NCBI GenBank assembly: GCA_017622295.1
Contig: JAGARK010000030.1
Coordinates: forward strand, 1 to 63,043
Direction: 5' to 3'
Length of the DNA stretch: 63,043 nt
Source: Oscillospiraceae bacterium
GTDB taxonomy: Bacteria > Bacillota > Clostridia > Oscillospirales > Oscillospiraceae
In this document: positions 25,898 to 43,775 of the stretch, one piece after another
Numbering within the stretch: the stretch's first letter is position 1
Layout of the letters: the number at the start of each line of letters is the position of its first letter
Notes under the pieces: generated by a model
The model's database searches: none
Told to the model about the DNA's origin: nothing
Seen by the model: only the letters and a program-made list of their open reading frames with translations
Position numbers and translations under genes: made by a program

Positions 25898-27801
25898 TTG
25901 ATCTTCAGGCGCCGCAGGGTCTTCTCGGTGGGGATGCCGTTTTGGTCCCAGCCCCGGGCTGCGTAATAGGTTTTCTTCATGGTCTCCAGGGGGATCTTGG
26001 TTTTGGGGTTGTTGGGGTCCTGGGGAACGTCTGTCAGCCGTTTGGGCAGCTTGTCATTGGCGGCGCTGACGCCGAATTTGCAGTTGATGTAGCGCTCCAT
26101 GGTATAGCCCCGCTCGCCGATGGAAATGTACTTGCCGAAGTCCATGTACATGCCCGTTGCCAGCCGGATCATCTTGGTGTGGTGGAACACAGGAAGATGC
26201 AGCGCGGCGACCCGGGGACATTTATTGATAAACCGAACTGCCCAGCCCACATGGGGAACTGCGGCGTTGACAGTTTTCGTAATGATGCCGTTGGGCTTGG
26301 TCAGCAGGAAGCCGGGGAAGAAGGCGTAGGAAGTGAACAGGCACTGTCCCGAAGCGGAAATGGTTTCCATCAGATCCTGGAACAGCATGGTCAGGTCTGC
26401 CTTTGCCTTGGGTGTCTGGGAGTCGGCGTTGAGGCCCAGACCTTCCATAATGACCAGATAGCCGCCGTTCAGGTGGCAGCCGCCCCGGTTGGACACGGCA
26501 TAGCCAAGTCCCTGTCCAACGGCCCGGCGGGGCTCGTAGGCTGCCAGCTCCAGACCCTTGGCGTGCATGGCGAATTCCTTGCCGCCATATTTCTGGCTCA
26601 ACCGCTTGCTGCCTTCGGCCAGCTCGTCGCCGATGCCCCGGCGATGGGCGATATCCTCAAAAACCTGGGAGAGGTTGTCGGTTTTTCCGAATTCCAGACC
26701 GTTGTCCCACAGGCCCTTTTCGTTTGCTTCCATGGCCCAGGCGATGGTGTTGGCGGTGGAGATGGTGTCCATGCCCAGCTCGTCCAGCTCATAGTTCCAG
26801 TCCAGAATCTTCTGCAGGTCGTTGTTGCAGATATTGCCGCCCAGAAGGCCCAGGGTTTCCAGTTCCGGTCCCTTCACTTCCTGGCCCTTGACACTGACCG
26901 TTCTGGCGCAGCGGATGGGGCAGGTCAGGCAGCCTGAGTTTCTGATGTTGTATTCTTCTGCAAGGGTTTCGCCGCTGACCTTTTCAAAATCTTCGTACTG
27001 GCCCGCGGAGTAATTTTTGGTGGAAAGGAGTCCGTGCATCTGCATGGAGCTGACCAGTCCGGCGGTGCCCACCCGGGGCAGCTGCTTGCCGGTGAGAGGG
27101 TGGCTCTGCAGGTAAGCGAACCACTTTTTACACCAGGCGGTGGTCTTTTCCTTGTCGTAAATGGGAACGGTCTTGCTGCCGCTGACGGTGATTGCTTTTA
27201 GTCCCTTCCAGCCCAGTACCGCGCCCAGGCCGGTGCGTCCCGCGGCCCGCTCGTCGGAGATGATGCCGGCGTATTTGACAAGATTTTCACCGGCGGGGCC
27301 AATGCACAGCTTGCCGAACTTCTTCTTGCCGATGAGCCGGATCAGCATTTCCTGACACTGACCGACCTTGGTGCCCCACAGGTCGCCGGCGTCGTGGAAG
27401 ATGAAGGCATCGTCATGAATCTCCAGCCATTTGCGGCCGTTGCATTTCCCTTTCAGGATCAGAGCGTCATAGCCGGCCTTCTTCAGGTGGAAGCCGAAGC
27501 TGCCGCCGCAGTTGGAGGAGGCGAGGATTCCTGTCTGGGGAGAAAGGGCGGAAATATTGAACCGGGCGGAGCTGGGGGCGCCGGTACCCGTCAGGGGGCC
27601 GGTGGAGATCACCATCCAGTTTTCTTCGCTGAAGGCGGTTTCCTTGCCTGTCAGATGGTCACATAAAATCCGTGCGGCCATGATCTTGCCGCCGAGGTAA
27701 AGCTCCCGCTGCTCATCGTTCCAGGGGTATTCCGTGGCGGTCTCGGCAGTAAGATCCACCAGCATGACCTTCCCCATATAACCTGCGTACTTTGATTCCA
27801 T
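25894..27801 (-). CDS. Aldehyde:ferredoxin oxidoreductase family protein (copy 1)
   Basis: 635 aa tungsten-pterin enzyme. Pterin-binding N-terminal domain: GPLTGTGAPSSARFN and ASSNCGGSFG. The [4Fe-4S] cluster cysteines are seen in CLTCPIRC, with the fourth in GGNICNNDL, and the pterin-contact ELDELGMDTIS follows. Oxidises aldehydes to acids with ferredoxin, or runs in reverse at low potential. It begins with AAGGAGG and is separated from the upstream chromate-transporter gene by a terminator, so it has its own start of transcription, then overlaps the MoaD-like gene. Substrate unknown. Confidence 0.92.
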   Translation of the reverse strand: MESKYAGYMGKVMLVDLTAETATEYPWNDEQRELYLGGKIMAARILCDHLTGKETAFSEENWMVISTGPLTGTGAPSSARFNISALSPQTGILASSNCGGSFGFHLKKAGYDALILKGKCNGRKWLEIHDDAFIFHDAGDLWGTKVGQCQEMLIRLIGKKKFGKLCIGPAGENLVKYAGIISDERAAGRTGLGAVLGWKGLKAITVSGSKTVPIYDKEKTTAWCKKWFAYLQSHPLTGKQLPRVGTAGLVSSMQMHGLLSTKNYSAGQYEDFEKVSGETLAEEYNIRNSGCLTCPIRCARTVSVKGQEVKGPELETLGLLGGNICNNDLQKILDWNYELDELGMDTISTANTIAWAMEANEKGLWDNGLEFGKTDNLSQVFEDIAHRRGIGDELAEGSKRLSQKYGGKEFAMHAKGLELAAYEPRRAVGQGLGYAVSNRGGCHLNGGYLVIMEGLGLNADSQTPKAKADLTMLFQDLMETISASGQCLFTSYAFFPGFLLTKPNGIITKTVNAAVPHVGWAVRFINKCPRVAALHLPVFHHTKMIRLATGMYMDFGKYISIGERGYTMERYINCKFGVSAANDKLPKRLTDVPQDPNNPKTKIPLETMKKTYYAARGWDQNGIPTEKTLRRLKIK

Positions 27802-29987: not shown

Positions 29988-31805
29988 TTATTTACCGATG
30001 CATTCGTCAAGACCCAGCTTTTTCAGAGTCTCGTCGGTGGGGAATGCGTTGACCCAGCCGCGGGCCTCATAGTACTGAGGCAGCGTCAGAGGCAGCTGGG
30101 AAACCATGCCCTTGGAGGGGCCGTTGACAATGGGCTCCTGCAGCAGACGCTTGGGCAGGCGGTCATCCTCGGGCTTCATGCCGGCAGCCTTGTTGAACAT
30201 TCTCTCGATGTTGTAGATCCGGTCGCCGATTTCCAGAACCTGTTCCACGGTCCAGTTGGTGCCGGTGGCGGCATTCAGCAGGTCGGTGTACTCGGGAGCG
30301 CCCATGGCGAAGGAGGTGAACAGGCAGTGACCCATGGAGTCGATGACAGCGGTCAGATCCTGGAAGGTCTTGGCCCATGCGGCCTTCTCGTCAATGACGG
30401 TGCGGTCCAGCTGCTGAGGCAGGCCCAGAACCTCGGGGGAGATCATATAGCCGCGGACATGGCAGCCGCCGCGGTTGGAGGTGGCGTAGGTGATACCGAT
30501 GCCCTGGATGCCGCGGGCGTCATAAGCAGGCATTTCCTGCTTCTTGACGGACATGGAAATCTCAGGCATACCGTAATGCTCGCACAGTCTTGCGGAGCCG
30601 GAGCTCATCAGCCAGTCCAGCTCGGTCTCGGGATCGCCCATGCGCTTGGTCCACTCAATCAGAGCCTTGGTGGAGCCCCACTCCAGAGGTACACCTGCGC
30701 ACTCCTCTTCCTTGATGGCGCCGCGCTGGTACAGCTCCATGGCTGCGGCAATGGTGCAGGGGGTACCGATGGCGTCCAGACCGTACTCGTTGCAGAGCAT
30801 GTTGCACTCGTCGATGACATTCAGATCATTGTTGCCACAGTTGGCGCCGTAAGCCCACAGAGGCTCATACTCAGGGCCACCGGCAACCTTGCCGTTGATG
30901 TTGACCACGCGGCCGCAGGCGATGGGGCAGCGGGCACAGGCACTGGGTCTGACCAGATATTTCTCAGCCAGAGCTTCGCCGGAGATGTCTTCGGCCTGAT
31001 CGTAGTAACTTTCCTGCCAGTTGCGGGTGGGCAGGGAACCGACGTTGTTGATGATGTTGACCAGAACAGCGGTGCCCAGAGCCCGAAGACCGGAGCCGGT
31101 GACGCCGTTGGCCTTGATCAGATCCATGGAGCGCTTGGTGGCGGCCTTCAGGGCGTCGATGTCGGCGATGTTGTCCAGCTTGGTGCGGCTGGTCTTGACA
31201 ACGATGGCCTTCAGCTTCTTGCTGCCCATGACAGCGCCGACGCCGGAGCGGCCGGCAGCCCGGTCCTTGTCATTCATGATGGCGGCAAGCAGGACCTTCT
31301 TCTCACCGGCGGGGCCGATGTTCAGAACGGAAGCGTCTGCGCCGTGCTTTTCCTTCAGCTTTTCATCGATCTCTTCGCTCTTGACGCCCACATATTCCCG
31401 GGCATCCAGCAGCTCAATCTTGTCATCGACGATGTTCAGGTAGCACCACTCGGGAGCTTCGCCTTCAACGATCAGAGCATCCCAGCCTGCATACTTCAGC
31501 TTCTGACCCCAGATACCGCCAGAGTTGGAAGAAGCGATCATGCCGGTCAGGGGGGACTTGGTGACGACCATATAGCGGCCGGTGGAGGGAGCGGCGGCAC
31601 CGGTCATGGGGCCGGTGATATAAACCAGCTTGTTTTCGGGGGACAGGGGATCGACGGTTGCGACACCTTCGTCATACAGAATCTTGGTGCCCAGGCCACG
31701 GCCGCCGATAAACTTGTGAGCCAGATCCAGATCCAGCTTTTCAATCTTGATCTCACCGGTGGTCAGGTTGATACGGGCAATCTTTTCGTAATATGCACCA
31801 GCCAT
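29988..31805 (-). CDS. Aldehyde:ferredoxin oxidoreductase family protein (copy 2)
   Basis: 605 aa. Pterin-binding region GPMTGAAAPSTGRYMVV and ASSNSGGIWG; cluster cysteines CARCPIAC with the fourth in GANCGNNDLN; then EYGLDAIGTP. Clearly a paralogue of copy 1, sharing the domain order. The ATG at 31805 has GGAGG seven bases upstream. It is the first gene of the operon that continues into the MoaD-like, ThiF-like and chromate-transporter genes, and is divergent from the HTH-PBP regulator gene. Substrate unknown. Confidence 0.93.
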   Translation of the reverse strand: MAGAYYEKIARINLTTGEIKIEKLDLDLAHKFIGGRGLGTKILYDEGVATVDPLSPENKLVYITGPMTGAAAPSTGRYMVVTKSPLTGMIASSNSGGIWGQKLKYAGWDALIVEGEAPEWCYLNIVDDKIELLDAREYVGVKSEEIDEKLKEKHGADASVLNIGPAGEKKVLLAAIMNDKDRAAGRSGVGAVMGSKKLKAIVVKTSRTKLDNIADIDALKAATKRSMDLIKANGVTGSGLRALGTAVLVNIINNVGSLPTRNWQESYYDQAEDISGEALAEKYLVRPSACARCPIACGRVVNINGKVAGGPEYEPLWAYGANCGNNDLNVIDECNMLCNEYGLDAIGTPCTIAAAMELYQRGAIKEEECAGVPLEWGSTKALIEWTKRMGDPETELDWLMSSGSARLCEHYGMPEISMSVKKQEMPAYDARGIQGIGITYATSNRGGCHVRGYMISPEVLGLPQQLDRTVIDEKAAWAKTFQDLTAVIDSMGHCLFTSFAMGAPEYTDLLNAATGTNWTVEQVLEIGDRIYNIERMFNKAAGMKPEDDRLPKRLLQEPIVNGPSKGMVSQLPLTLPQYYEARGWVNAFPTDETLKKLGLDECIGK

Positions 31806-33047: not shown

Positions 33048-34268
33048 ATGCTGCATGTGAAAACGCCGGAAGAAGTTCTGGCTTTGATTGAATGTGAATT
33101 CCACTCCCTTGGCGCGGCGGAGCAGGTCTGCCTGGTTGACGCCATGGGCCGGTGTCTGGCGGAGGATATCGCCGCCACGGAATATGTTCCCGATTTTGAC
33201 CGCTCTACCGTGGATGGCTATGCCGTACGGGCAAGGGATACCTTCGGCTGCAGTGATGCCATTCCCGCCATTTTGCCCCTGCAGCGGGAAGTGCTCATGG
33301 GCGAGGGTGCGGAATTTGAACTCAATGCTGAAGAATGTGTGGCTGTTCCCACCGGCGGTGCGGTACCCCGGGGCGCCGACAGCGTGGTAATGATCGAATA
33401 CACCGAGGATTACGGCGACGGCACCATTGGCATCGCCAAGGCCGCCGCACCGGGACAGAACATGATCTTCCGGGGTGACGATGTGTATCCCGGCAAGGTG
33501 ATTCTGAGAAAGGGCAGCGTTTTGTCCGCTCAGGACATCGGCGCGCTGGCCGCCATTGGCCGGGTGCAGGTCCCCGTGGTGAAGAAGCTGACTGTAGGTG
33601 TCATTTCCACCGGCGATGAGCTGGTTCCTCCGGAAGCGGCTCCCGGTCCTGGACAGGTGCGGGATGTGAACAGCCCCATGCTGGAGGCCATGCTGACTGC
33701 GTTCGGAGCAAAGGTCATTAATTACGGCATTGTGGTCGATGATGAGGCCCTGCTCAGCTCCAAAATGACCCAGGCAGCCGCAGAATGCGATGCGGTGCTG
33801 ATTTCCGGCGGCAGCAGCGTTGGCGTCAAGGATGCAGCCTGCCGGATCATCGAATCCATGGGCAGAGTGCTGCTGCATGGCATCGCCATCAAGCCTGGCA
33901 AGCCGACCATTCTGGGCAAGGCCGGGGTGAAGCCCCTGGTGGGTCTGCCCGGCCATCCTGTGGCGGCTTTCTTTGTCACCAAGCTCTTCGTTCTGCCTCT
34001 GCTGGATCGGCTCATGGGGAAAAAACGCGAGCGTTACACCGTTACCGCCAAAATCGCGGAAAGCGTCAGCGCCAACCATGGCCGGGCACAGTATCACTGC
34101 TGCCGCCTGGAACGCAAAGACGGACAGCTGATCGCCTATCCGATCCGGGGTAAATCCGGCCTCATTACCACTCTGGCAGGCAGCTCAGGCTACTTCTGCA
34201 TCGACCGGGACTGCGAGGGCCTGCCGCAATCTGCTGGAATTCAAGTGACTGTTTCTACTGGAGATTGA
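33048..34268 (+). CDS. moeA: Molybdopterin molybdotransferase MoeA
   Basis: 406 aa. Inserts molybdate (or tungstate) into adenylylated molybdopterin. Domain order is typical: MoeA N-terminal part with FDRSTVDGYAVRA and VPTGGAVPRGADSVVMIEYTE (in pieces), the MoCF-biosynthesis domain with GVISTGDELVPP, DVNSPML and SGGSSVGVKD, and the C-terminal beta domain (about 330-405) with PGKPTILG and GLPGHPVAAF. It begins one base after the regulator gene, so the two are translationally coupled. Confidence 0.93.
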   Translation: MLHVKTPEEVLALIECEFHSLGAAEQVCLVDAMGRCLAEDIAATEYVPDFDRSTVDGYAVRARDTFGCSDAIPAILPLQREVLMGEGAEFELNAEECVAVPTGGAVPRGADSVVMIEYTEDYGDGTIGIAKAAAPGQNMIFRGDDVYPGKVILRKGSVLSAQDIGALAAIGRVQVPVVKKLTVGVISTGDELVPPEAAPGPGQVRDVNSPMLEAMLTAFGAKVINYGIVVDDEALLSSKMTQAAAECDAVLISGGSSVGVKDAACRIIESMGRVLLHGIAIKPGKPTILGKAGVKPLVGLPGHPVAAFFVTKLFVLPLLDRLMGKKRERYTVTAKIAESVSANHGRAQYHCCRLERKDGQLIAYPIRGKSGLITTLAGSSGYFCIDRDCEGLPQSAGIQVTVSTGD

Positions 34269-34273
34269 CATAT

Positions 34274-36184
34274 ATGGGATTTGAATATTTAACCAATATG
34301 CCTCTTGCCAAGGCCAGAGAGGACTATCTGAACCTGCTGAAAGGCTATGGCTTTGGCCCCAAAACCGAGCTTATCCCGGTCAGTGAAGCCTGCGGCCGTG
34401 TGACTGCCCATGCGGTCTACGCTCACATCTGTGCACCCCACTATGCCGCCAGCGCTATGGACGGCGTTGCGGTGAACGCAAAGGACACCTTTGGCGCGAC
34501 GGAAACCACCCCCATCACCCTGAACGAGGAGCGGTACATCGTTCTGGATACCGGCGACCCGATTCCGGATGGCTGTGATGCCGTGATCATGGTGGAGGAC
34601 ATTGTTAAGAACGACGATGGCTCCATTACCATCCATGCCGCTGCCGCACCCTGGCAGCACATCCGCCAGATCGGTGAGGACGTCTGCGCGGGCGAAATGA
34701 TCCTGCCCAGCCATGTGACGGTCTCTCCGTCTGCCATCGGCGCCATGATCGCCGGCGGCGTGCTGGAGATCGAGGTCATCCGCAAGCCCCTGGTGGGCAT
34801 CATTCCCACCGGCGACGAGATCATCCCACCCTGTACCGATCCCAAGCCCGGCGATATTCTGGAATTCAATGGCTCCATTTTCTCCGCCATGGTGCGGCAA
34901 TGGGGCGCCGAAGCCCGGGTCTATCCCATCGTTCCCGACAAATTTGAACAGATCAAGGCCATGGTTGCCAAGGCAACTTCCGAGTGTGATATGGTCATTC
35001 TGAACGCCGGTTCCTCTGCAGGACGGGAGGATTATTCCGTGAAGGTCATCCGCCAGCTGGGGGAAGTGCTGTACCACGGTATTGCTATGAAGCCCGGCAA
35101 GCCCGCGATCCTGGGCTGCCAGGGGGCCAAGCCCATCCTGGGTGTTCCCGGCTATCCCGTTTCCGGCATCATCGTCATCGAAGAGCTGCTCAGGCCCCTC
35201 ATCGACCACTGGCTGAAGGCTCCCGCAGCCCATCGCCAGTATGCTGCGGCAACCCTGACCCGGCCTGTGGTTTCCGGGCTCAAATATGAGGAATTCGTCC
35301 GTGTCCGTATGGGTTATGTGGGCAGCAAGCTGATGGCCTCCCCCTTGAGCCGGGGCAGCGGTGTCGTGTCCTCCTTCATGAAGGCTGACGGCATTCTGGA
35401 AGTACCCCAGGGCCTGGAGGGCTATGAGGCCGGCGCTGAGGTGAATGTACGCCTGCTGAGCTCTGTCGACAAGCTGAAAAATACCCTGGTGGTCATCGGC
35501 AGCCATGATCCTCTGCTGGACGAGCTGGGGGACATGCTCCATCTGGAAAACAATGACCTGTATATGAGTTCTTCCCATGTGGGCTCCATGGGCGGTATCA
35601 TGGCCATCCGCCGGGGCGAGGCCCATGCCGCGGGCTGCCATTTGCTCGATACCGCCAACGGTGAATACAATGTCGCGTTTATGAAGAAATATTTCCCCAA
35701 AGGCGGCGTGAAGCTGATCCGCTGCGTGGGCCGTCAGCAGGGTCTGATGGTGGCTAAGGGGAATCCACTGGGCATCGAAGCCTTTGCGGATATTACCAGG
35801 GAGGGCCTGCGCTACGTCAACCGCCAGAAAGGTTCCGGCACCCGCATCCTCACCGATTACCTGTGCAAGCGGGAGGGGTTGGATACTGCCGCCATCTATG
35901 GCTACGACCGGGAGGAACTGACCCACACCTCCGTGGCGGCGCAGATCGTCAGCGGCAGCGCTGATGCGGGCATGGGCATCTACTCTGCAGCCAAGCTCTA
36001 TGATCTGGATTTCATCCCCATCTGCATTGAAGAATACGATCTGATCATCCCTGATCACGCCTGGGATACGCCTCAGGTAGCGCAGCTGCTGAAGACCTTG
36101 AAGAGTGAAGAATTCAAAGAAAAGATCCTGGCTCTGGGCGGCTACACGGTAGACAATCCCGGCCAGATTATCCCCCTGGACTGA
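34274..36184 (+). CDS. MoeA fused to a PBP-like domain
   Basis: 636 aa. Residues about 1-400 form a second MoeA (SAMDGVAVNA, VMVEDIV, GIIPTGDEIIPP, EFNGSIFSAMV, NAGSSAGREDY, PGVPVSG-like loop). Residues about 408-600 form the PBP-like domain seen in the HTH regulator (QKGSGTRILTDYL, SADAGMGIYSAA). Such fusions are found in Firmicutes and archaea and may channel or sense the metal. The ATG at 34274 has GGAG about ten bases upstream; a TTG at 34265 overlapping the moeA stop is the alternative. Two MoeA proteins may serve different metals (inference). Confidence 0.9.
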   Translation: MGFEYLTNMPLAKAREDYLNLLKGYGFGPKTELIPVSEACGRVTAHAVYAHICAPHYAASAMDGVAVNAKDTFGATETTPITLNEERYIVLDTGDPIPDGCDAVIMVEDIVKNDDGSITIHAAAAPWQHIRQIGEDVCAGEMILPSHVTVSPSAIGAMIAGGVLEIEVIRKPLVGIIPTGDEIIPPCTDPKPGDILEFNGSIFSAMVRQWGAEARVYPIVPDKFEQIKAMVAKATSECDMVILNAGSSAGREDYSVKVIRQLGEVLYHGIAMKPGKPAILGCQGAKPILGVPGYPVSGIIVIEELLRPLIDHWLKAPAAHRQYAAATLTRPVVSGLKYEEFVRVRMGYVGSKLMASPLSRGSGVVSSFMKADGILEVPQGLEGYEAGAEVNVRLLSSVDKLKNTLVVIGSHDPLLDELGDMLHLENNDLYMSSSHVGSMGGIMAIRRGEAHAAGCHLLDTANGEYNVAFMKKYFPKGGVKLIRCVGRQQGLMVAKGNPLGIEAFADITREGLRYVNRQKGSGTRILTDYLCKREGLDTAAIYGYDREELTHTSVAAQIVSGSADAGMGIYSAAKLYDLDFIPICIEEYDLIIPDHAWDTPQVAQLLKTLKSEEFKEKILALGGYTVDNPGQIIPLD

Positions 36185-37541: not shown

Positions 37542-38394
37542 CATCCTCATCATCGGCGCAGGTGCCGCCGGAATTGCCGCCGCAAGGGCGGCCCATGGGG
37601 CAGGATGTACAAGCGTTCTGCTGGTGGACAGAAAAGAAAACATGGGTGGTGTGCTGCTCCAGTGCGCCCACCATGGCTTCGGGCCGAATCTGAACGGCCC
37701 GGAATACACAAAGAAGCTACTGGAAAACTTCCCCAAATCGATCGGCTGGATCCCCAATGTCACCGTTTTGTCTGTTTCCGGGGACAAAAGGGCGATTCTT
37801 TCCGGCGCTGGTTTCGGTGCGAAAGAGGTTTCCTTCCAACAGCTGATTCTGGCAACGGGCTGCCGGGAGATTCCCATCGGCGCCCTGCCCATTGCGGGAA
37901 CCCGCCCCAAAGGGGTCTATACCGCCGGGCAGATGCAGGAAATGATGAATTTGTATGGCTTCATTCCGGAGGGGCCGGTGGTGATTCTGGGCAGCGGCGA
38001 TCTGGGACTGGTCATGGCAAAACAGCTGGCCCAAACCGGTCTTGCCGTTACGCTGGTAGAGCAGCGGCCCGAGTGCGGCGGCATGGTAAAGAATCAGCGC
38101 TGCCTGACGGAACTGCCCATTCAGCTTCAATGCAGCACCACCATCTCCGAGGTTTTCGGAGAGAAAAATCTGGAAGGTATTATGACAGTTGACGGCAGAT
38201 ACCTTCCTTGTAAAACGCTGCTCATTGCCGTGGGACTCCGGCCGGAACGAGAAGTGATTTTCGGGTTGGAAAACCCTGACTGGCTTCATCTGTGCGGAAA
38301 CTGCAATGCGGTTCATCCCATGGTGGAAGCAGTTGTGAATGAAGGAAAACGTGCAGGCATTGCCGCCTGGGAAAAGATACGAGGTAGCTTATGA
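37528..38394 (+). CDS. Pyridine nucleotide-disulfide-type FAD oxidoreductase, short
   Basis: 288 aa. GTG start at 37528 with GGAGG nine bases upstream, inside the end of the preceding gene. FAD motif IIGAGAAGIAAARAAHGAG, second dinucleotide motif VVILGSGDLGLVMAKQL (about 145-160), and a closing GLRPERE. The standard partner in glpA-like operons is about 410-420 aa; this one is shorter and has no visible cysteine pair of a disulfide reductase. Probably forms a complex with the GlpA-like protein and passes electrons to or from NAD(P)H. Confidence 0.85.
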   Translation: MEYCDILIIGAGAAGIAAARAAHGAGCTSVLLVDRKENMGGVLLQCAHHGFGPNLNGPEYTKKLLENFPKSIGWIPNVTVLSVSGDKRAILSGAGFGAKEVSFQQLILATGCREIPIGALPIAGTRPKGVYTAGQMQEMMNLYGFIPEGPVVILGSGDLGLVMAKQLAQTGLAVTLVEQRPECGGMVKNQRCLTELPIQLQCSTTISEVFGEKNLEGIMTVDGRYLPCKTLLIAVGLRPEREVIFGLENPDWLHLCGNCNAVHPMVEAVVNEGKRAGIAAWEKIRGSL

Positions 38395-39344
38395 TCGACC
38401 GACTTGGCCGCAGCATCACATATATGCGGATCTCTGTCACGGATAAATGCAATCTGCGCTGCCGCTACTGCATGCCGGAGGAGGGCGTCTGCAAAAAGAG
38501 CCACTTTGACATGCTGACAGAGGATGAAATGATCACCGCTGTGGAAGCGGCGGCGGCTCTGGGCATCAAAAAGCTCCGCATCACCGGCGGCGAACCGCTG
38601 GTCAAGAAAAACATTGTTTCCATCTGCCGCCGGGCGGCGGGAGTGGAGGGTATCAGCGAAGTTTGCCTGACCACCAACGGCATTTTGCTGCCGCGGCTGG
38701 CAAAGCCCTTAAAGGAAGCCGGCGTGAAGCGGCTGAATCTGAGCCTTGACACCCTTGACCCTCAGAAGTATGCTTACATTACCCGCATCGGAACGCTGGA
38801 TGATTTCTGGGCAGGATTGGAAGCTGCCTTTGATGCGGGGTTTGAAAAAATCAAGATCAATGCGGTTCTTATCGGCGGCTTCAATGACGACGAGATCGTC
38901 CCGCTGGCCCAGCTGACGAAACAGTATCCTGTGGATATGCGTTTTATCGAGATGATGCCCATGTACGACAGCGGGGATTTCGATGAAAAGGCCTTCATTC
39001 CCTGTACGAACGTGCTGGACCATCTTCCGGAAGCCCTGCCTGCGGAACAGGACGGGGGCGTTGCCAGGCTCTACCGCTTGCCGGGGGCCCAGGGGAATAT
39101 CGGGCTGATCAGCCCCGTCAGCGCTCACTTCTGCGGCGAATGCAACCGAATCCGATTGACGGCGGACGGCCGCGTCAAGCCCTGCCTCCATGCTTCCGAC
39201 GAATACTCCCTGAAGGGACTGGATTTTGAAGGCATGAAGCGGGTTCTGGAAGAAGCCATCCGGAGCAAGCCCGCCTGGCATGGCGATCTGGATGCACTTC
39301 ACCGCTCTCAGGCGGGACGCAATATGAACCAAATCGGAGGTTAA
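38391..39344 (+). CDS. moaA: GTP 3',8-cyclase MoaA
   Basis: 317 aa radical-SAM enzyme for the first step of pterin cofactor synthesis. N-terminal cluster motif CNLRCRYCMPEEG; C-terminal cluster CGECNRIRLTADGRVKPC (CxxCx13C); the chain ends in the conserved IGG whose Gly-Gly tail enters the active site. TGGEPL and SLDTL are present. The ATG overlaps the stop of the FAD oxidoreductase. Complete and of usual length. Confidence 0.96.
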   Translation: MIDRLGRSITYMRISVTDKCNLRCRYCMPEEGVCKKSHFDMLTEDEMITAVEAAAALGIKKLRITGGEPLVKKNIVSICRRAAGVEGISEVCLTTNGILLPRLAKPLKEAGVKRLNLSLDTLDPQKYAYITRIGTLDDFWAGLEAAFDAGFEKIKINAVLIGGFNDDEIVPLAQLTKQYPVDMRFIEMMPMYDSGDFDEKAFIPCTNVLDHLPEALPAEQDGGVARLYRLPGAQGNIGLISPVSAHFCGECNRIRLTADGRVKPCLHASDEYSLKGLDFEGMKRVLEEAIRSKPAWHGDLDALHRSQAGRNMNQIGG

Positions 39345-39347
39345 GTG

Positions 39348-39827
39348 ATGAGTGACTTTACCCATTTTAACGAACAGGGTCGTGCAAAAATGGTGGATGT
39401 GGGCGAAAAGCCCATTTCCCAGCGTGTTGCCGTGGCGGCGGGCCGGGTTTTGGTCAATGATAAGACCTTTGAACTGATCCGTTCCGGCGGCATGAAGAAG
39501 GGTGACGTTCTGACCGTTGCCCAGATCGCGGGCGTCATGGGCGCCAAGCGCACCCCGGATATCATTCCCATGTGCCATCCGATTCTGATAGACGGCATCA
39601 ATCTGGAGATGTTGCTGGACGAAAGCCGCAAATCTGTTGAGATCAAAGCAACCGTTTCCTGCGACGGCAGAACCGGCGTGGAGATGGAGGCTCTGACCGC
39701 CGTATCCACGGCGGCGCTGACGGTCTACGATATGTGCAAGGCTGTTCAGAAGGATATGGTCATCACCGACATCCGCCTGCTTAGCAAGACCGGCGGCGTC
39801 CACGGAGATTACAAACGGGAGGAATAA
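39348..39827 (+). CDS. moaC: Cyclic pyranopterin monophosphate synthase MoaC
   Basis: 159 aa. Works with MoaA to form cyclic pyranopterin monophosphate. Family blocks MVDVGEKPISQRVA, KKGDVLTVAQIAGVMGAK (in part), IPMCHP and TGVEMEALTAVS are present. The ATG at 39348 has CGGAGG seven bases upstream; a GTG three bases earlier is less well placed. Four bases after moaA and followed within three bases by mogA. Confidence 0.95.
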   Translation: MSDFTHFNEQGRAKMVDVGEKPISQRVAVAAGRVLVNDKTFELIRSGGMKKGDVLTVAQIAGVMGAKRTPDIIPMCHPILIDGINLEMLLDESRKSVEIKATVSCDGRTGVEMEALTAVSTAALTVYDMCKAVQKDMVITDIRLLSKTGGVHGDYKREE

Positions 39828-39829
39828 CC

Positions 39830-40321
39830 ATGTATACAGCAGCAGTCATCACCATCAGCGACAAGGGCCACCGCGGAGAGCGGGTGGATACCAGCGGCCC
39901 CAATTTGGTGCACATTCTCAAAGAGCGGGGCTATGATGTGACCTACACCGCCATTGTCCCCGATGAACGGGACGCTATTAAGGCAGAGCTGATCAAGTGC
40001 GCCGATGAGCTGCACATCGCGCTGGTTCTCACCACCGGCGGTACAGGCTTCTCCCCCCGGGATATTACGCCCGAAGCGGCCATGGATGTGATCGAGCGCC
40101 CTACTCCCGGCATTCCGGAGGCTATGCGTGCCGAATCCATGCGCATTACCCCCAAGGGCTGCCTGAGCCGCAGCGTGGCGGGCATCCGTAAGCGTAGCCT
40201 GATTATCACCCTTCCCGGCAGCAAGAAGGCTTCCCAGGAGAATATACTGGCTGTCATCGACCCTGTGGAGCATGGTCTGGATATGCTCTACAGCGAAGGC
40301 AGCGCAGACTGTGCAAAGTAA
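39830..40321 (+). CDS. mogA: MogA/MoaB family molybdopterin adenylyltransferase
   Basis: 163 aa. MoCF-fold protein that adenylylates molybdopterin before metal insertion. The family signature TTGGTGFSPRDITPEA is complete, and SRSVAGIR and LPGSKKA complete the active site. Whether it is MogA or MoaB type cannot be separated on this basis. It is the last plus-strand gene of the operon that starts with the HTH-PBP regulator, closed by a terminator. Confidence 0.92.
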   Translation: MYTAAVITISDKGHRGERVDTSGPNLVHILKERGYDVTYTAIVPDERDAIKAELIKCADELHIALVLTTGGTGFSPRDITPEAAMDVIERPTPGIPEAMRAESMRITPKGCLSRSVAGIRKRSLIITLPGSKKASQENILAVIDPVEHGLDMLYSEGSADCAK

Positions 40322-40355
40322 AAAACAAGGCCATCCCAACGGATGGCCTTGTTTT
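40322..40355. terminator. Bidirectional intrinsic terminator
   Basis: Perfect 15-bp stem AAAACAAGGCCATCC / GGATGGCCTTGTTTT with loop CAAC, ending in the stop codon of the convergent moaE-like gene. Confidence 0.9.
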
Positions 40356-40749
40356 AATTCAGTTCGATTTCCGTGACGCATTCATTTTTCAGGCGGCCCA
40401 CCAGATACTGCAGAGCCTCCACAACTCGGGGGCGGATATCGCCGCCGATGAGGACGTACATGATATCGTCGCCCATTTCCAGCTGCCCCTCGTTCAGCCA
40501 GACCTTGATGTAGTAGATGCCGTCCATTTTATATGTTTCTGCAATCACGGCATCAACCCTGGCCCGGTCATAGGAAAATAGCATTCCCGTGACTTCCTTC
40601 GTTCCTTCCGTACCATAGCGGACTTTGGCCTTTGCGCTCTGGCGGACGGTACCGTTGTGGGTCAGGTACATGCCGATCTTCGGCGCAGATTCGTGGGCCT
40701 TGGCTTCTTTCAGCCAGGCGTCGATGGAAGGGGATGTTTTTTTGTTCAT
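40354..40749 (-). CDS. MoaE-like protein (molybdopterin synthase large-subunit family)
   Basis: 131 aa. The block THNGTVRQ resembles the GxVRN loop of MoaE, MLFSYDRARVDAVIAETYKM its long helix, and MGDDIMYVLIGG the central strand. The chain stops soon after VGRLKNECVTEIE, so the C-terminal catalytic lysine segment (PFWKKE in MoaE) is absent. It has GGAGG eight bases upstream of the ATG. It is convergent with mogA. It may be a divergent synthase subunit or a non-catalytic relative. Confidence 0.7.
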   Translation of the reverse strand: MNKKTSPSIDAWLKEAKAHESAPKIGMYLTHNGTVRQSAKAKVRYGTEGTKEVTGMLFSYDRARVDAVIAETYKMDGIYYIKVWLNEGQLEMGDDIMYVLIGGDIRPRVVEALQYLVGRLKNECVTEIELN

Positions 40750-40807
40750 GGGGGTACCTCCGGCGTTTTTTCTAATTATAATGGGATCCGGTGTAAGATG
40801 CAACCGT

Positions 40808-41059
40808 TCATCCTCCGGCAGATAAAAATCTCAGATAAAAACGCCGGTGAATGGCGCGGACATCCTCGTCGCTGCCTTCCATCCGGACCCAGGTTCTGGG
40901 CATGTTCCAATGTCCCAGAATGGTTGACTGCGTCCCGGTCAGGGTGATACGGCAATCTGCGTATTCAAAACCTTCTGGCGTTTGGAGAATATCCGGCTGC
41001 TGCGTGAAGAACTGCTGAACCCGCTCGATAGATACGGCCCAGTTTTCTTCGATGATCAT
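40808..41059 (-). CDS. Hypothetical small protein
   Basis: About 83 aa. The polypeptide has a mixed alpha/beta look (SIERVQQFFTQQPDIL, then YADCRITL and LGHWNMPRTWVRMEG). No family is recognised. The ATG at 41059 lies six bases after GGGGTG; the upstream ATG and GTG would overlap that site. It is divergent from the tup operon and 58 bases upstream of the moaE-like gene, so it may be cotranscribed with it. Confidence 0.6.
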   Translation of the reverse strand: MIIEENWAVSIERVQQFFTQQPDILQTPEGFEYADCRITLTGTQSTILGHWNMPRTWVRMEGSDEDVRAIHRRFYLRFLSAGG

Positions 41060-41123
41060 GTCCATCACCCCGCTTTTTGTATATCATAACTGAAAAAACT
41101 TCAAAAAGAAAGATAGAAAAGGA

Positions 41124-41152
41124 TTGATATTGGATAATTTCCGTGATATAAT
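41124..41152 (+). promoter_or_regulatory. Promoter of the tupABC operon
   Basis: TTGATA (41124-41129) and TATAAT (41147-41152) with a 17-base spacer. Transcription would start near 41159. Confidence 0.85.
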
Positions 41153-41158
41153 CTCGAA

Positions 41159-41319
41159 AGAACAACGCAGGCCCTGAAAGCAGATGGGCTGCTGAAATAG
41201 CGTTTTGTAAAGCGGTGGACGAGCCTCTTTCCAAAAGCAAAGGCAGTACGCAATTTTTGCGCCCTTTTGACTTTGGAATGGGCTCGTTGTTTTATTATCT
41301 ACATTCTGGAGGAAATGAA
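41159..41319 (+). promoter_or_regulatory. Structured 5' leader of tupA, possible metal- or cofactor-responsive RNA
   Basis: Nested complementarity fills the leader. First module: AACGC (41164-41168) with GCGTT (41200-41204) enclosing GCCC/GGGC. Second module: ACGAGCC (41219-41225) with GGCTCGT (41281-41287), then inside it TTCCAAA/TTTGGAA, AAAGG/CCTTT and CGCAA/TTGCG, stacked as one long irregular stem. The outer stem ends in TTGTTTTATT, so it could act as a terminator. Mo- and W-cofactor sensing RNAs occur before such genes, but I could not match a known consensus. Confidence 0.5.
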
Positions 41320-42366
41320 ATGAAAAAGATCATCTCTATGCTGCTGGTCCTGGTCATGGTGCTGGGTCTGGTGGCCTGTGGCGCTTCCGAGCCTGCTGCT
41401 ACCGATGCTCCCGCCACCGAAGCACCCGTTGTCACTGAGGCTCCCGTCCCTGAGACCGAAGCTCCCGAAGCCGAGCCTGCTCTGGTGGTCGACACCTGCA
41501 TCCTGAAGGAAGCAGACGACAAGATGCTCAACACCTACTCCGTCATCGGCGTCAATGCCGAGGCTCCCTTTGTGGATGCCGACGGTAATGCGGTTGCAGA
41601 TGTCTATGTCAACACCGCCGGTGCCGACGCTCTGATCCAGTGGCTGATGACCGAAGAGGCTCTGAACATGGCCGGTGAGTATGGTGTTGCCGAGTACGGT
41701 GAGTACCTGTTCTACGTCAAGGACGATGCTCCCGTTTACTCCGGTGAGATCGCTGCCGCTACCGAAGAGACCAAGACCATCCGTCTGTCTACTACTACTT
41801 CCGTCAAGGACTCCGGCCTGCTGGGTTACCTGCTGCCCGCTTTCGAGTCTGCATACGGCTACACTGTTGAAGTTCAGTCCGCCGGTACCGGCAAGGCCAT
41901 CGCCGCTGCCAAGGCCGGCAATGCCGACCTGATCCTGGTCCACTCCAAGAGCCAGGAGGAAGCTTTCATCGAGGGCGGCTTCGGCCGCGTTGTAGAAGGC
42001 TTCGAGGCTGAACGCCTGTCCTTCATCTACAACTACTTCGTCCTGTGCGGTCCTTCCGCTGACCCCGCCGGTGTCGAGGCGGCTGCTTCCGTTCTGGATG
42101 CTTTTGCAGCCATCGCTGACGGCAAGTACACCTTCGTTTCCCGTGGTGACGGTTCCGGTACCCACACCAAGGAGCTGGCTCTGTGGCCCGAGGCTCTGGG
42201 TATCACTGCAGAGGCTGAGTCCTTCGCTGACTACACCGAGTGGTACATCTCTGCCAACACCGGCATGGGCGCATGCCTGGTCATGGCTGAGGAAATGGGC
42301 GCCTACATCCTGACCGACAAGGCTACCTTCCTGACCTTCGTTGCCAACGACGGCGTTATGGGTTGA
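41320..42366 (+). CDS. tupA: Tungstate-binding lipoprotein TupA, apparently circularly permuted
   Basis: 348 aa. Lipoprotein signal LGLVAC with Cys20 as the lipidated residue, then an Ala/Pro/Glu/Thr linker to about 53. Residues 54-133 (MLNTYSVIGVN, LIQWLMTEEALNMAGEYGV) correspond to the segment that ends ordinary TupA proteins. Residues 152-348 (STTTSVKDSGLL, VSRGDGSGTH, SANTGMGACLVMAEE, YILTDKATFL) correspond to the part that begins ordinary TupA, and the chain stops just where the C-terminal segment would follow. Binds tungstate outside the cell for TupB/TupC. The ATG at 41320 follows GGAGG. Confidence 0.88.
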   Translation: MKKIISMLLVLVMVLGLVACGASEPAATDAPATEAPVVTEAPVPETEAPEAEPALVVDTCILKEADDKMLNTYSVIGVNAEAPFVDADGNAVADVYVNTAGADALIQWLMTEEALNMAGEYGVAEYGEYLFYVKDDAPVYSGEIAAATEETKTIRLSTTTSVKDSGLLGYLLPAFESAYGYTVEVQSAGTGKAIAAAKAGNADLILVHSKSQEEAFIEGGFGRVVEGFEAERLSFIYNYFVLCGPSADPAGVEAAASVLDAFAAIADGKYTFVSRGDGSGTHTKELALWPEALGITAEAESFADYTEWYISANTGMGACLVMAEEMGAYILTDKATFLTFVANDGVMG

Positions 42367-42438: not shown

Positions 42439-43125
42439 ATGAAAACATCTGTGATGAAAGCCATTGCGCTGATTCTGTCTGCGGACGCAGAATTGATCGA
42501 TATTCTGGGCGTTACGGCAGAAATGAGTATCCAGAGCTCTGTCTTTGCCCTGTTGCTGGGCTTGCCCATCGGCATCTGGCTGGGGGCCTGCCGCTTCCCT
42601 GGGAGAAATGTTCTGCTGGTTGCCAACCGGACGCTTCAGGGCATGCCGCCTGTGGTTTGCGGTCTTTTGTTTTATATGCTGTTTTCCGGTGTGGGACCTT
42701 TCCGACATCTGAAACTGCTGTTTACCGTGGATATTATGATTCTGGCACAGGTGGTTCTGATCACCCCCATTGTGGTGGGAACCATGGAGACCTATGTTTC
42801 CGGTGTCGCCCCCGCTGTCCGGGAAACGGCAAAGGGATTGCGCCTCGGGGGGTTGAAGACCTTCTGTCTGCTGTGCAATGAGTGCGTCTACCAGATCATT
42901 TCCGCGTATTTGCTGGCTTTTGCCCGCTCCATTGCGGAGGTGGGGGCGGTATCCATGGTGGGCGGTGCCATCGCCTGGAAGACCAATGTCATGACCACTG
43001 CCATCATGCAGTATACCAACCGGGGTAATTTCACCCTGGGTATCGCCCTGGGTATGATTCTGCTGACGGTGTCGCTGGTGGTGAATATTCTCATCTCCCT
43101 GCTGCAAAGGAGGCTGAGCCGATGA
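42439..43125 (+). CDS. tupB: Tungstate ABC transporter permease TupB
   Basis: 228 aa, five or six membrane segments. The EAA-type cytoplasmic loop is ETAKGLRLGGLKTFCLLC-like (about residues 135-150), which docks on the ATPase. The family also includes GMPPVVCGLLFYML and SIAEVGAVSMVGGAI, shared with tungstate and molybdate permeases. Starts after GGGGGAAAGG. Its stop overlaps the tupC start (ATGA). Confidence 0.9.
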   Translation: MKTSVMKAIALILSADAELIDILGVTAEMSIQSSVFALLLGLPIGIWLGACRFPGRNVLLVANRTLQGMPPVVCGLLFYMLFSGVGPFRHLKLLFTVDIMILAQVVLITPIVVGTMETYVSGVAPAVRETAKGLRLGGLKTFCLLCNECVYQIISAYLLAFARSIAEVGAVSMVGGAIAWKTNVMTTAIMQYTNRGNFTLGIALGMILLTVSLVVNILISLLQRRLSR

Positions 43126-43775
43126 AGATTCATGCATTTTCCAAAACCTACGATGGAAGAACCGTGCTGGATTTCCCAGGTATGGAGCTGCAGCCCGGAA
43201 AGATTTATGCGGTCATCGGCGCCAACGGAAGCGGAAAATCCACTTTTGCAAAAATTCTGGCAGGTGTGCTGAAAGCAGACCGAAAGGATATTCATCTGGA
43301 AACAGACTGCGTTGGCTATATGCCCCAGAAGAATTATGCCTTCCGTATGACCACAAAAGCCAACATCCTGCTGAACGGCCGGGATGTATCCCGAGCAGAA
43401 GAATTGATGGATGCCATTCAGCTGCGCCATCTGGAAAACAAACGGGCAGACCGGCTCTCCGGCGGCGAGACCGCCCGCATGGCTTTGGCCCGGCTGATGA
43501 TGAAGCGCTATGATGTGGCAATTCTGGATGAGCCCACTGCCGCCATGGATATGGAGACCACATCCGTGTCGGAAGACCTGATTGTGCGCTATGTCCGGGA
43601 GATGGGCTGTACCTTGATCCTCGTGACCCACAGCCTGCAGCAGGCCCGGCGTATTGCTGATGAAGTGCTCTATTTCCACAAGGGAAAGCTGCTGGAATGC
43701 GGATCGAAAGAGCAGGTCCTGTATGAGCCGCAACTCCCGGAAACCAGACAGTTTCTGGATTTCTACGGCGTATGA
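43122..43775 (+). CDS. tupC: Tungstate ABC transporter ATP-binding protein TupC
   Basis: 217 aa, short because it lacks the C-terminal regulatory domain of many ModC proteins. Walker A GANGSGKS at residues 33-40, signature LSGGETARMALARL, Walker B VAILDEPTAA, and the switch histidine in LVTHSL. Overlaps tupB by four bases. Its small size and partners fit the TupC family rather than the larger molybdate ATPases. Confidence 0.9.
   Translation: MKIHAFSKTYDGRTVLDFPGMELQPGKIYAVIGANGSGKSTFAKILAGVLKADRKDIHLETDCVGYMPQKNYAFRMTTKANILLNGRDVSRAEELMDAIQLRHLENKRADRLSGGETARMALARLMMKRYDVAILDEPTAAMDMETTSVSEDLIVRYVREMGCTLILVTHSLQQARRIADEVLYFHKGKLLECGSKEQVLYEPQLPETRQFLDFYGV

Follow-up and report, generated by a model that had tools for sequence, protein, structure and literature searches.

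The tupA gene of the window (the whole stretch of 63,043 nucleotides from an Oscillospiraceae bacterium that was analysed) very probably encodes a naturally occurring circular permutant of TupA, a working lipoprotein predicted to bind tungstate. The open reading frame and its coordinates were re-checked and both were correct; the product is a lipoprotein of 348 residues (Table 1). By sequence, its chain runs from a signal peptide with lipobox and tether into the old C-terminal piece of TupA, and then through a junction of fixed length into the old N-terminal and middle pieces. An earlier note had proposed this permutation from the letters of the gene. Profile, PDB and NCBIfam matches in swapped order uphold the proposal, and we regard the circular permutation of TupA as confirmed at the sequence level.

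Table 1. Features of the window around permuted tupA, with their coordinates and the basis of each assignment
Feature	Position	Strand	Basis
AFOR_C-family gene (tungsten aldehyde:ferredoxin oxidoreductase family; AFOR_C region only), probable metal user	25900..27132	-	Family search
Second AFOR_C-family gene (AFOR_C region only)	30009..31139	-	Family search
MoeA fused to PBP_like domain (pterin-metal insertion), near tungsten genes	34265..36184	+	Family search, from 34292
moaA, moaC and mog cofactor genes	38391..40321	+	Named by eye from translations
MoaE-family protein	40354..40803	-	PF02391, 6.8e-08
Sigma-70-type promoter-like site, TTGATA-17-TATAAT, TG before second hexamer	41124..41152	+	11/12 consensus bases; consensus match only
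Conserved leader RNA candidate: GGTGGACGAGCCTCTT, then long hairpin and T-rich run	41196..41298	+	Conservation, folding, covariation
Permuted tupA, 348 residues plus stop	41320..42366	+	ORF, profile and PDB matches
Signal peptide with lipobox, Cys20	41320..41379	+	Read from sequence
Acidic Pro/Ala/Thr-rich tether, residues 21-56	41380..41487	+	Read from sequence
Moved TupA C-terminal piece, residues 57-132	41488..41715	+	52-protein profile: residues 58-135 = TupA positions 179-245
Junction of old C-terminus and old N-terminus, residues 133-152	41716..41775	+	Constant motif spacing
TupA N-terminal and middle piece, residues 153-340	41776..42339	+	52-protein profile: residues 153-340 = TupA positions 2-174; ligand-residue equivalents inside
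New C-terminal tail, residues 341-348, plus stop	42340..42366	+	ORF, profile limits
TupB-like permease	42439..43125	+	NF041773 143.9 bits (below cut-off of 320); NF038017 above its cut-off
ABC ATPase in TupC position	43122..43775	+	ABC ATPase families; NF041774 90.2 bits, below cut-off; gene position

The window protein was compared with a profile of 52 conventional TupA proteins from the order, class and phylum, and gave two matches in swapped order (Table 1). For this profile, 56 conventional proteins were hand-picked among 79 rows, the omitted rows being permuted, duplicated or truncated, or in some cases conventional as well, and four of the 56 were dropped for lack of the start motif. The separate alignment of the two pieces to TupA structures that the earlier note had suggested was carried out with phmmer against the PDB. 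Residues 152-340 strongly matched positions 5-178 of 3muq, and residues 58-103 matched positions 183-230, again in swapped order and weakly (independent E 13; E 0.059 for the segment alone). The NCBIfam TupA model (NF041772) matched the protein in two stretches with 125.6 bits, its cut-off of 400 bits not being reached, and the isolated N-terminal segment corresponded to positions 199-252/253 of 266, the C-terminal end of TupA, with an E of about 0.02. The Pfam PBP_like_2 match covered residues 148-340. Taken alone, the moved segment of the window matches weakly (E 0.02-0.06); the strength comes from the family profile.

Seventy-five copies were scored, namely the window protein, 69 of the 71 permuted loci of the genome scan described below, L087 and L089 from a search of the order and L120-L122 from a search of the class. 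Two scan loci were left out, L078 being cut by its contig and L079 being frame-disrupted. Seventy-four of the 75 copies were distinct; L054 and L087 were identical in their core and probably represent one species in two collections. In every copy the main match ran from profile positions 1-3 to 169-177, and a second match (33-47 bits), N-terminal to the main one, ran from 178-180 to 242-245. The two matches never overlapped and a third was never present, which bears out the earlier claim of complementary pieces without duplication and rules out an internal duplication. When the pieces were rotated to the ordinary order, the best-domain score rose by 45 to 59 bits in all 75 copies. With the moved segment shuffled (750 controls), the gain was at most 8.4 bits, and a chance match of the N-terminal segment was thereby ruled out. 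We also ruled out an unrelated N-terminal domain, on the basis of the moved segments themselves. When 177,635 PDB sequences were searched with a profile built from 31 rows of the segment only, TupA C-termini were the top three hits (whole-sequence E of 1.8e-4 for 3muq, 0.0038 for 3kn3 and 0.017 for 5my5); the fourth TupA structure, 3lr1, was missed by this search. As isolated segments, 30 of 31 matched the NCBIfam TupA model at E up to 1 (best 4.4e-06), and the next family was matched by four. The LFY/LFF motif at the old C-terminus and the motif at the STTTS position of the old N-terminus were spaced by 24 residues in 75 of 75 copies, indicating that the junction is constrained.

Since the genome of the window (G000) is a draft, 75.55% complete and in 80 contigs, we considered whether the swapped order might be due to faulty assembly or, in this one genome, to a chance resemblance. 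The earlier note had itself raised misassembly as a doubt and had proposed a search for the same order in related genomes. Among the 75 loci from our genome scan, 71 encode the permuted protein, whereas four match signal and tether only. The 71 loci come from 70 assemblies (accession prefixes, counted by eye); because these other assemblies carry the family, the permuted order is not a misassembly. Both pieces were present in the same order in 69 further copies from other assemblies, the junction length was fixed and the shuffled controls gained little, making an artefact or chance resemblance vanishingly improbable.

The source titles of the 71 loci were those of uncultured or metagenome-assembled genomes, many from ruminant and other animal guts. 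Most named Oscillospiraceae, Ruminococcaceae, Lachnospiraceae or Clostridia, with single ones naming Bacillales and Coriobacteriales. One assembly, RUG12358, holds two permuted tupA loci (L026 and L030). In the order of the window, 5 of 197 genomes had a TupA match at 1e-10; judged by protein, the form was permuted in G000, G101 and G114 and conventional or paralogous in G070, G169 and G114. In the class, 47 of 391 genomes matched and four were permuted (G000, G236, G549 and G392), the form being judged by profile range only for rows whose protein was not read. The family profile matched 186 of 398 genomes in a sample of the phylum, where, among the matches listed, only the genome of the window matched from the first profile position. 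Two more permuted copies were found in the order of G854 (G964 and G965). The lipobox cysteine was absent by a simple pattern in 13 of the 68 permuted copies judged (L034, L035, L036, L042, L043, L044, L046, L047, L048, L049, L056, L063 and L065), which have an AxA-like signal end and, in several cases, almost no tether. In the permuted TupA of L068 (3527-4900), some 95 additional residues separate the tether from the moved piece. L086, L171 and the second open reading frame of L160 hold TupA paralogues in which STTTS is replaced by a motif of the STTIGPVDAG or STIGPIDAG type, and that of L086 has an N-terminal region recognised by eye as LysM-like.

The position of the cut was then related to the TupA of Desulfovibrio alaskensis (DaTupA), in which, according to the available part of PMC5517513, lobe A comprises residues 2-76 and 201-251 and lobe B residues 91-200. 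DaTupA numbering was carried over through the alignment with 5my5 (offset 23 from the TTTS position). Residue 343 of the window protein corresponds to DaTupA 180 and residue 61 to DaTupA 189. The earlier note had placed the new chain ends near the hinge, a placing that the alignment corrects: on these lobe limits, the cut would lie at about DaTupA 181-188, within lobe B and some 12 residues before the crossover at 200/201. Both new termini would accordingly be situated in lobe B, with residues 61-72 ending this lobe and residue 73 entering lobe A. Both lobe crossovers would stay, and the pieces may well refold into the ordinary two-lobed TupA structure. As the cut is inside lobe B, the lipid tether would move from lobe A to lobe B.

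Concerning function, the oxyanion-binding residues reported or proposed in DaTupA (Thr9-11, Ser12, His59, Arg118, Thr124 and Asp170; available text of PMC5517513) are all kept in the permuted protein, their equivalents in the window being T158-T160, S161, H208, R275, T281 and D333. The columns of T159, T160, S161 and the His, Arg, Thr and Asp were invariant in 51 of 51 rows, and that of T158 was nearly so. As in TupABC, tupB and an ABC ATPase gene adjoin permuted tupA. In 67 of the 71 loci tupB follows; the remaining four loci are cut off by the end of the contig, at most about 150 bases away from the tupA open reading frame. In the window the genes in the TupB and TupC positions are adjacent, and both fall below the NCBIfam TupB and TupC cut-offs. 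Cofactor genes are frequent near permuted tupA. A short open reading frame of 86 residues (40808-41068, minus strand) is divergent from tupA; it gave no match in a Pfam search and has relatives at several permuted loci.

Potential users of the metal were examined in the same genomes. The tungsten-oxidoreductase (WOR) family, PF01314, was present in all eight permuted-TupA genomes tested, with two copies in the window. A PF00384 molybdopterin enzyme was found in three of the eight; among the five without, the absence carries little weight for G000, G964 and G965, which are only 76-84% complete. In the order, WOR occurred in 9 of 197 genomes, and all five genomes with TupA of either form were among these nine. 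The probability of this overlap under independence is about 5e-8 by a hand calculation that ignores relatedness. The four remaining WOR genomes, which had no TupA match at 1e-10 (G055, G085, G139 and G191), may use another tungsten importer. Taking into account the kept ligand residues and the WOR genes in eight of eight genomes, permuted TupA probably still feeds tungstate to TupBC. Tungstate would bind between the side carrying TTTS and the side carrying Arg, Thr and Asp, and TupBC would import it for the pterin cofactors of tungsten oxidoreductases.

A real permutant might nevertheless have drifted to another oxyanion or to sensing. The score of 125.6 bits is far from the NCBIfam TupA cut-off of 400, the permease and ATPase are also under their TupB and TupC cut-offs, the moved piece has some 11 inserted residues when compared with 3muq, and MoeA-PBP and other cofactor genes are often neighbours. 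On the other hand, the conventional TupA proteins of the class miss the same cut-off (0 of 391 genomes above it), the ligand residues are kept, tupB adjoins in 67 of 71 loci, WOR is present in all eight genomes tested, and five of these eight, some of them incomplete, have no PF00384. We consider such a drift unlikely, and the best reading of the sequences is that permuted TupA would carry out ordinary tungstate capture with an unusual chain order.

As for the origin of the permutation, FastTree trees of 30 permuted and 52 conventional proteins placed the permuted proteins in one clade, with support of 1.0 for the full alignment, 1.0 for the N-piece and 0.992 for the C-piece. In all three trees this clade adjoined L133 and L134 (0.908, 0.883 and 0.817). 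With 32 permuted and 59 conventional proteins, the permuted clade had support of 1.0 in the full, N-piece and C-piece trees and shared a group with seven conventional proteins of the G854 order (0.954, 0.948 and 0.78); the last node, to the single nearest protein, had 0.802, 0.0 and 0.23, respectively. IQ-TREE on the full set gave 100 for the permuted clade, and 95, 32, 93 and 40 for the nodes below it. The TupB proteins of 29 permuted operons also formed a clade (0.743), whose neighbours, at 1.0, were five operons of the order of G854. Both pieces of permuted TupA thus appear to descend from the same parent, the support for the C-piece being moderate at 0.78.

These trees bear on the alternative that the protein is a chimera, in which the C-terminal piece of TupA was lost by truncation and an N-terminal piece was acquired from another binding-protein gene, the likeness to TupA having arisen by convergence. 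A doubt of this type has been raised for the permuted sugar-binding lipoprotein TpMglB-2 (available text of PMC4990184), and here the C-piece alignment has only 69 columns and yields weak support at the deeper nodes. The C-piece alone nevertheless puts the permuted clade by the same conventional proteins as the N-piece does, and the TupA model recognises 30 of the 31 isolated segments, only four of which match the next family. The shared history of both pieces and TupB argues against a chimera, which we regard as very improbable; were the donor a sister copy of tupA, the event would amount to the duplication route to permutation.

Because the piece trees and the TupB tree place the family by the same conventional lineage, a single permutation inside the tupABC operon is suggested. 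It would have arisen once, within an intact operon, and permuted tupA would then have reached a patchy set of gut Clostridia and of related Bacillota. The permuted gene was probably produced by tandem duplication and in-frame fusion, after which the outer parts were lost. The second half of the junction, AATEETK-IRLSTTTS, resembles the mature start of relatives from the order of G854 (VATPENPVIRLSTTTS), as expected if the old N-terminus was fused to the old C-terminus. In G854, a near relative of the permuted lineage, two tupA genes of conventional order flank tupBC (L175:3757-7150), and the TTTS and SGTH motifs of the second are altered; duplication therefore does occur in this lineage. Fusion intermediates of the C-N-C or N-C-N type were found neither among the 75 scored copies nor among the related proteins inspected.

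A conserved leader RNA candidate lies between the promoter-like site and tupA. Its core string, TGGACGAGCC, was present upstream of permuted tupA in 46 of the 68 loci with enough upstream sequence and absent in 22; in two further loci the upstream sequence was too short to judge. Copies of the string inside tupC, seen in several loci and as the sole copies in four, were rejected as codons of an ATPase motif (named by eye). A known riboswitch was also rejected, as no Rfam family reached its gathering score over the leader; the two matches in the window that did reach it lay elsewhere and were a tRNA and a tmRNA. Within 41000-41400, a search at E up to 10 gave only mir-2063, PyrG_leader and SNORA27, all weakly (E 0.15-8.8). 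An alignment of 30 leaders, chosen among the core-string loci and G114, had at least 16 invariant columns, and six leaders folded singly gave z-scores from -3.55 (window) to -7.36. RNAalifold gave a poor structure for this mixed alignment. In a hand-picked subset of 16 leaders, the window not included, 82.5% of cells were paired and 13 pairs were changed on both sides; the small first helix was only 60.7% paired. This structure beat all 500 shuffles and all slid registers, an outcome favoured by its derivation from a single folded member. The exact 17-mer of the leader was found in 3 of 197 genomes of the order, exactly the three with permuted TupA. Among 391 class genomes the exact 16-mer was found only in that of the window; the three other permuted-TupA genomes were without it, G392 differing by a single base. 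The leader may be a metal or cofactor riboswitch. G114 carries a second leader copy (L188:2934), with a Peripla_BP_2 gene on one side and, on the other, genes for a FecCD-type permease, an ATPase named by eye and a further Peripla_BP_2 protein; these genes may encode another oxyanion or metal transporter controlled by this RNA.

Permuted substrate-binding proteins are already known as a kind. The available text of PMC4990184 describes TpMglB-2 (Tp0684) of Treponema pallidum, a circularly permuted type I sugar-binding lipoprotein of solved structure, for which a 'Type Ic / Cluster Bc' was proposed and which has relatives in gut Gram-positives. Like permuted TupA, TpMglB-2 is a natural circular permutant and a tethered substrate-binding lipoprotein with transporter genes adjacent. 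Judged by sequence, the window protein falls outside the type I sugar-binding fold family and matches PBP_like_2 and TupA instead. In TpMglB-2 it is the N-terminal strands that have moved to the C-terminus, and a lobe crossover has been added, whereas the crossovers of permuted TupA would remain two. The moved part of TpMglB-2 has 13% identity and its ancestry was left open, while that of permuted TupA is clearly homologous. CPSARST, according to the available text of PMC2395249, related glycine-betaine-binding, molybdate-binding and CysB folds by permutation. As this group includes molybdate-binding proteins, two-lobed binding folds are known to tolerate re-cutting. Those relations were found by structure among proteins of less than 24% identity, while permuted TupA lies within one sequence family and operon type. 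It is homologous over both pieces to the TupA of TupABC (D. alaskensis, 5my5; also 3lr1, 3muq and 3kn3), and differs in that the canonical N-middle-C order is swapped, with the C-terminal piece at the N-terminus, a junction of about 20 residues, a short insertion in the moved piece and termini that would lie in lobe B. The earlier note knew of no described permuted TupA, and we found none in the literature searched, most subscription papers lying outside the reach of the search.

The precedents, as far as their available text goes, compare distant proteins (less than 24% identity, or 13% in the moved part), and at such distances the way in which the permutation came about is hidden. For TupA, forms with and without the permutation share an operon type and are clearly homologous in sequence, and the closest unpermuted lineage has been identified; the step can therefore be traced and is open to experimental test. 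A shift of the anchor from lobe A to lobe B, if true in structure, would test how tethering affects binding proteins, a question also raised for TpMglB-2 in the available text of its report. It is conceivable, though we think it rather doubtful, that these proteins are the founders of a permuted sub-class within the type II, two-lobed oxyanion-binding proteins, the re-cut having been selected for this move and the changed presentation to the TupB dimer, with some members (13 of 68 without lipobox) later doing without the lipid anchor. Since the family falls far short of the cut-off of the whole-length TupA model, annotation may leave a probable tungstate transporter of gut Clostridia without a name, at a time when the tungsten enzymes of gut bacteria are of current interest (available text of PMC11980592). 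In permuted TupA, nature has re-cut the chain of a protein that apparently still works, and dozens of related bacteria share the same re-cut form.
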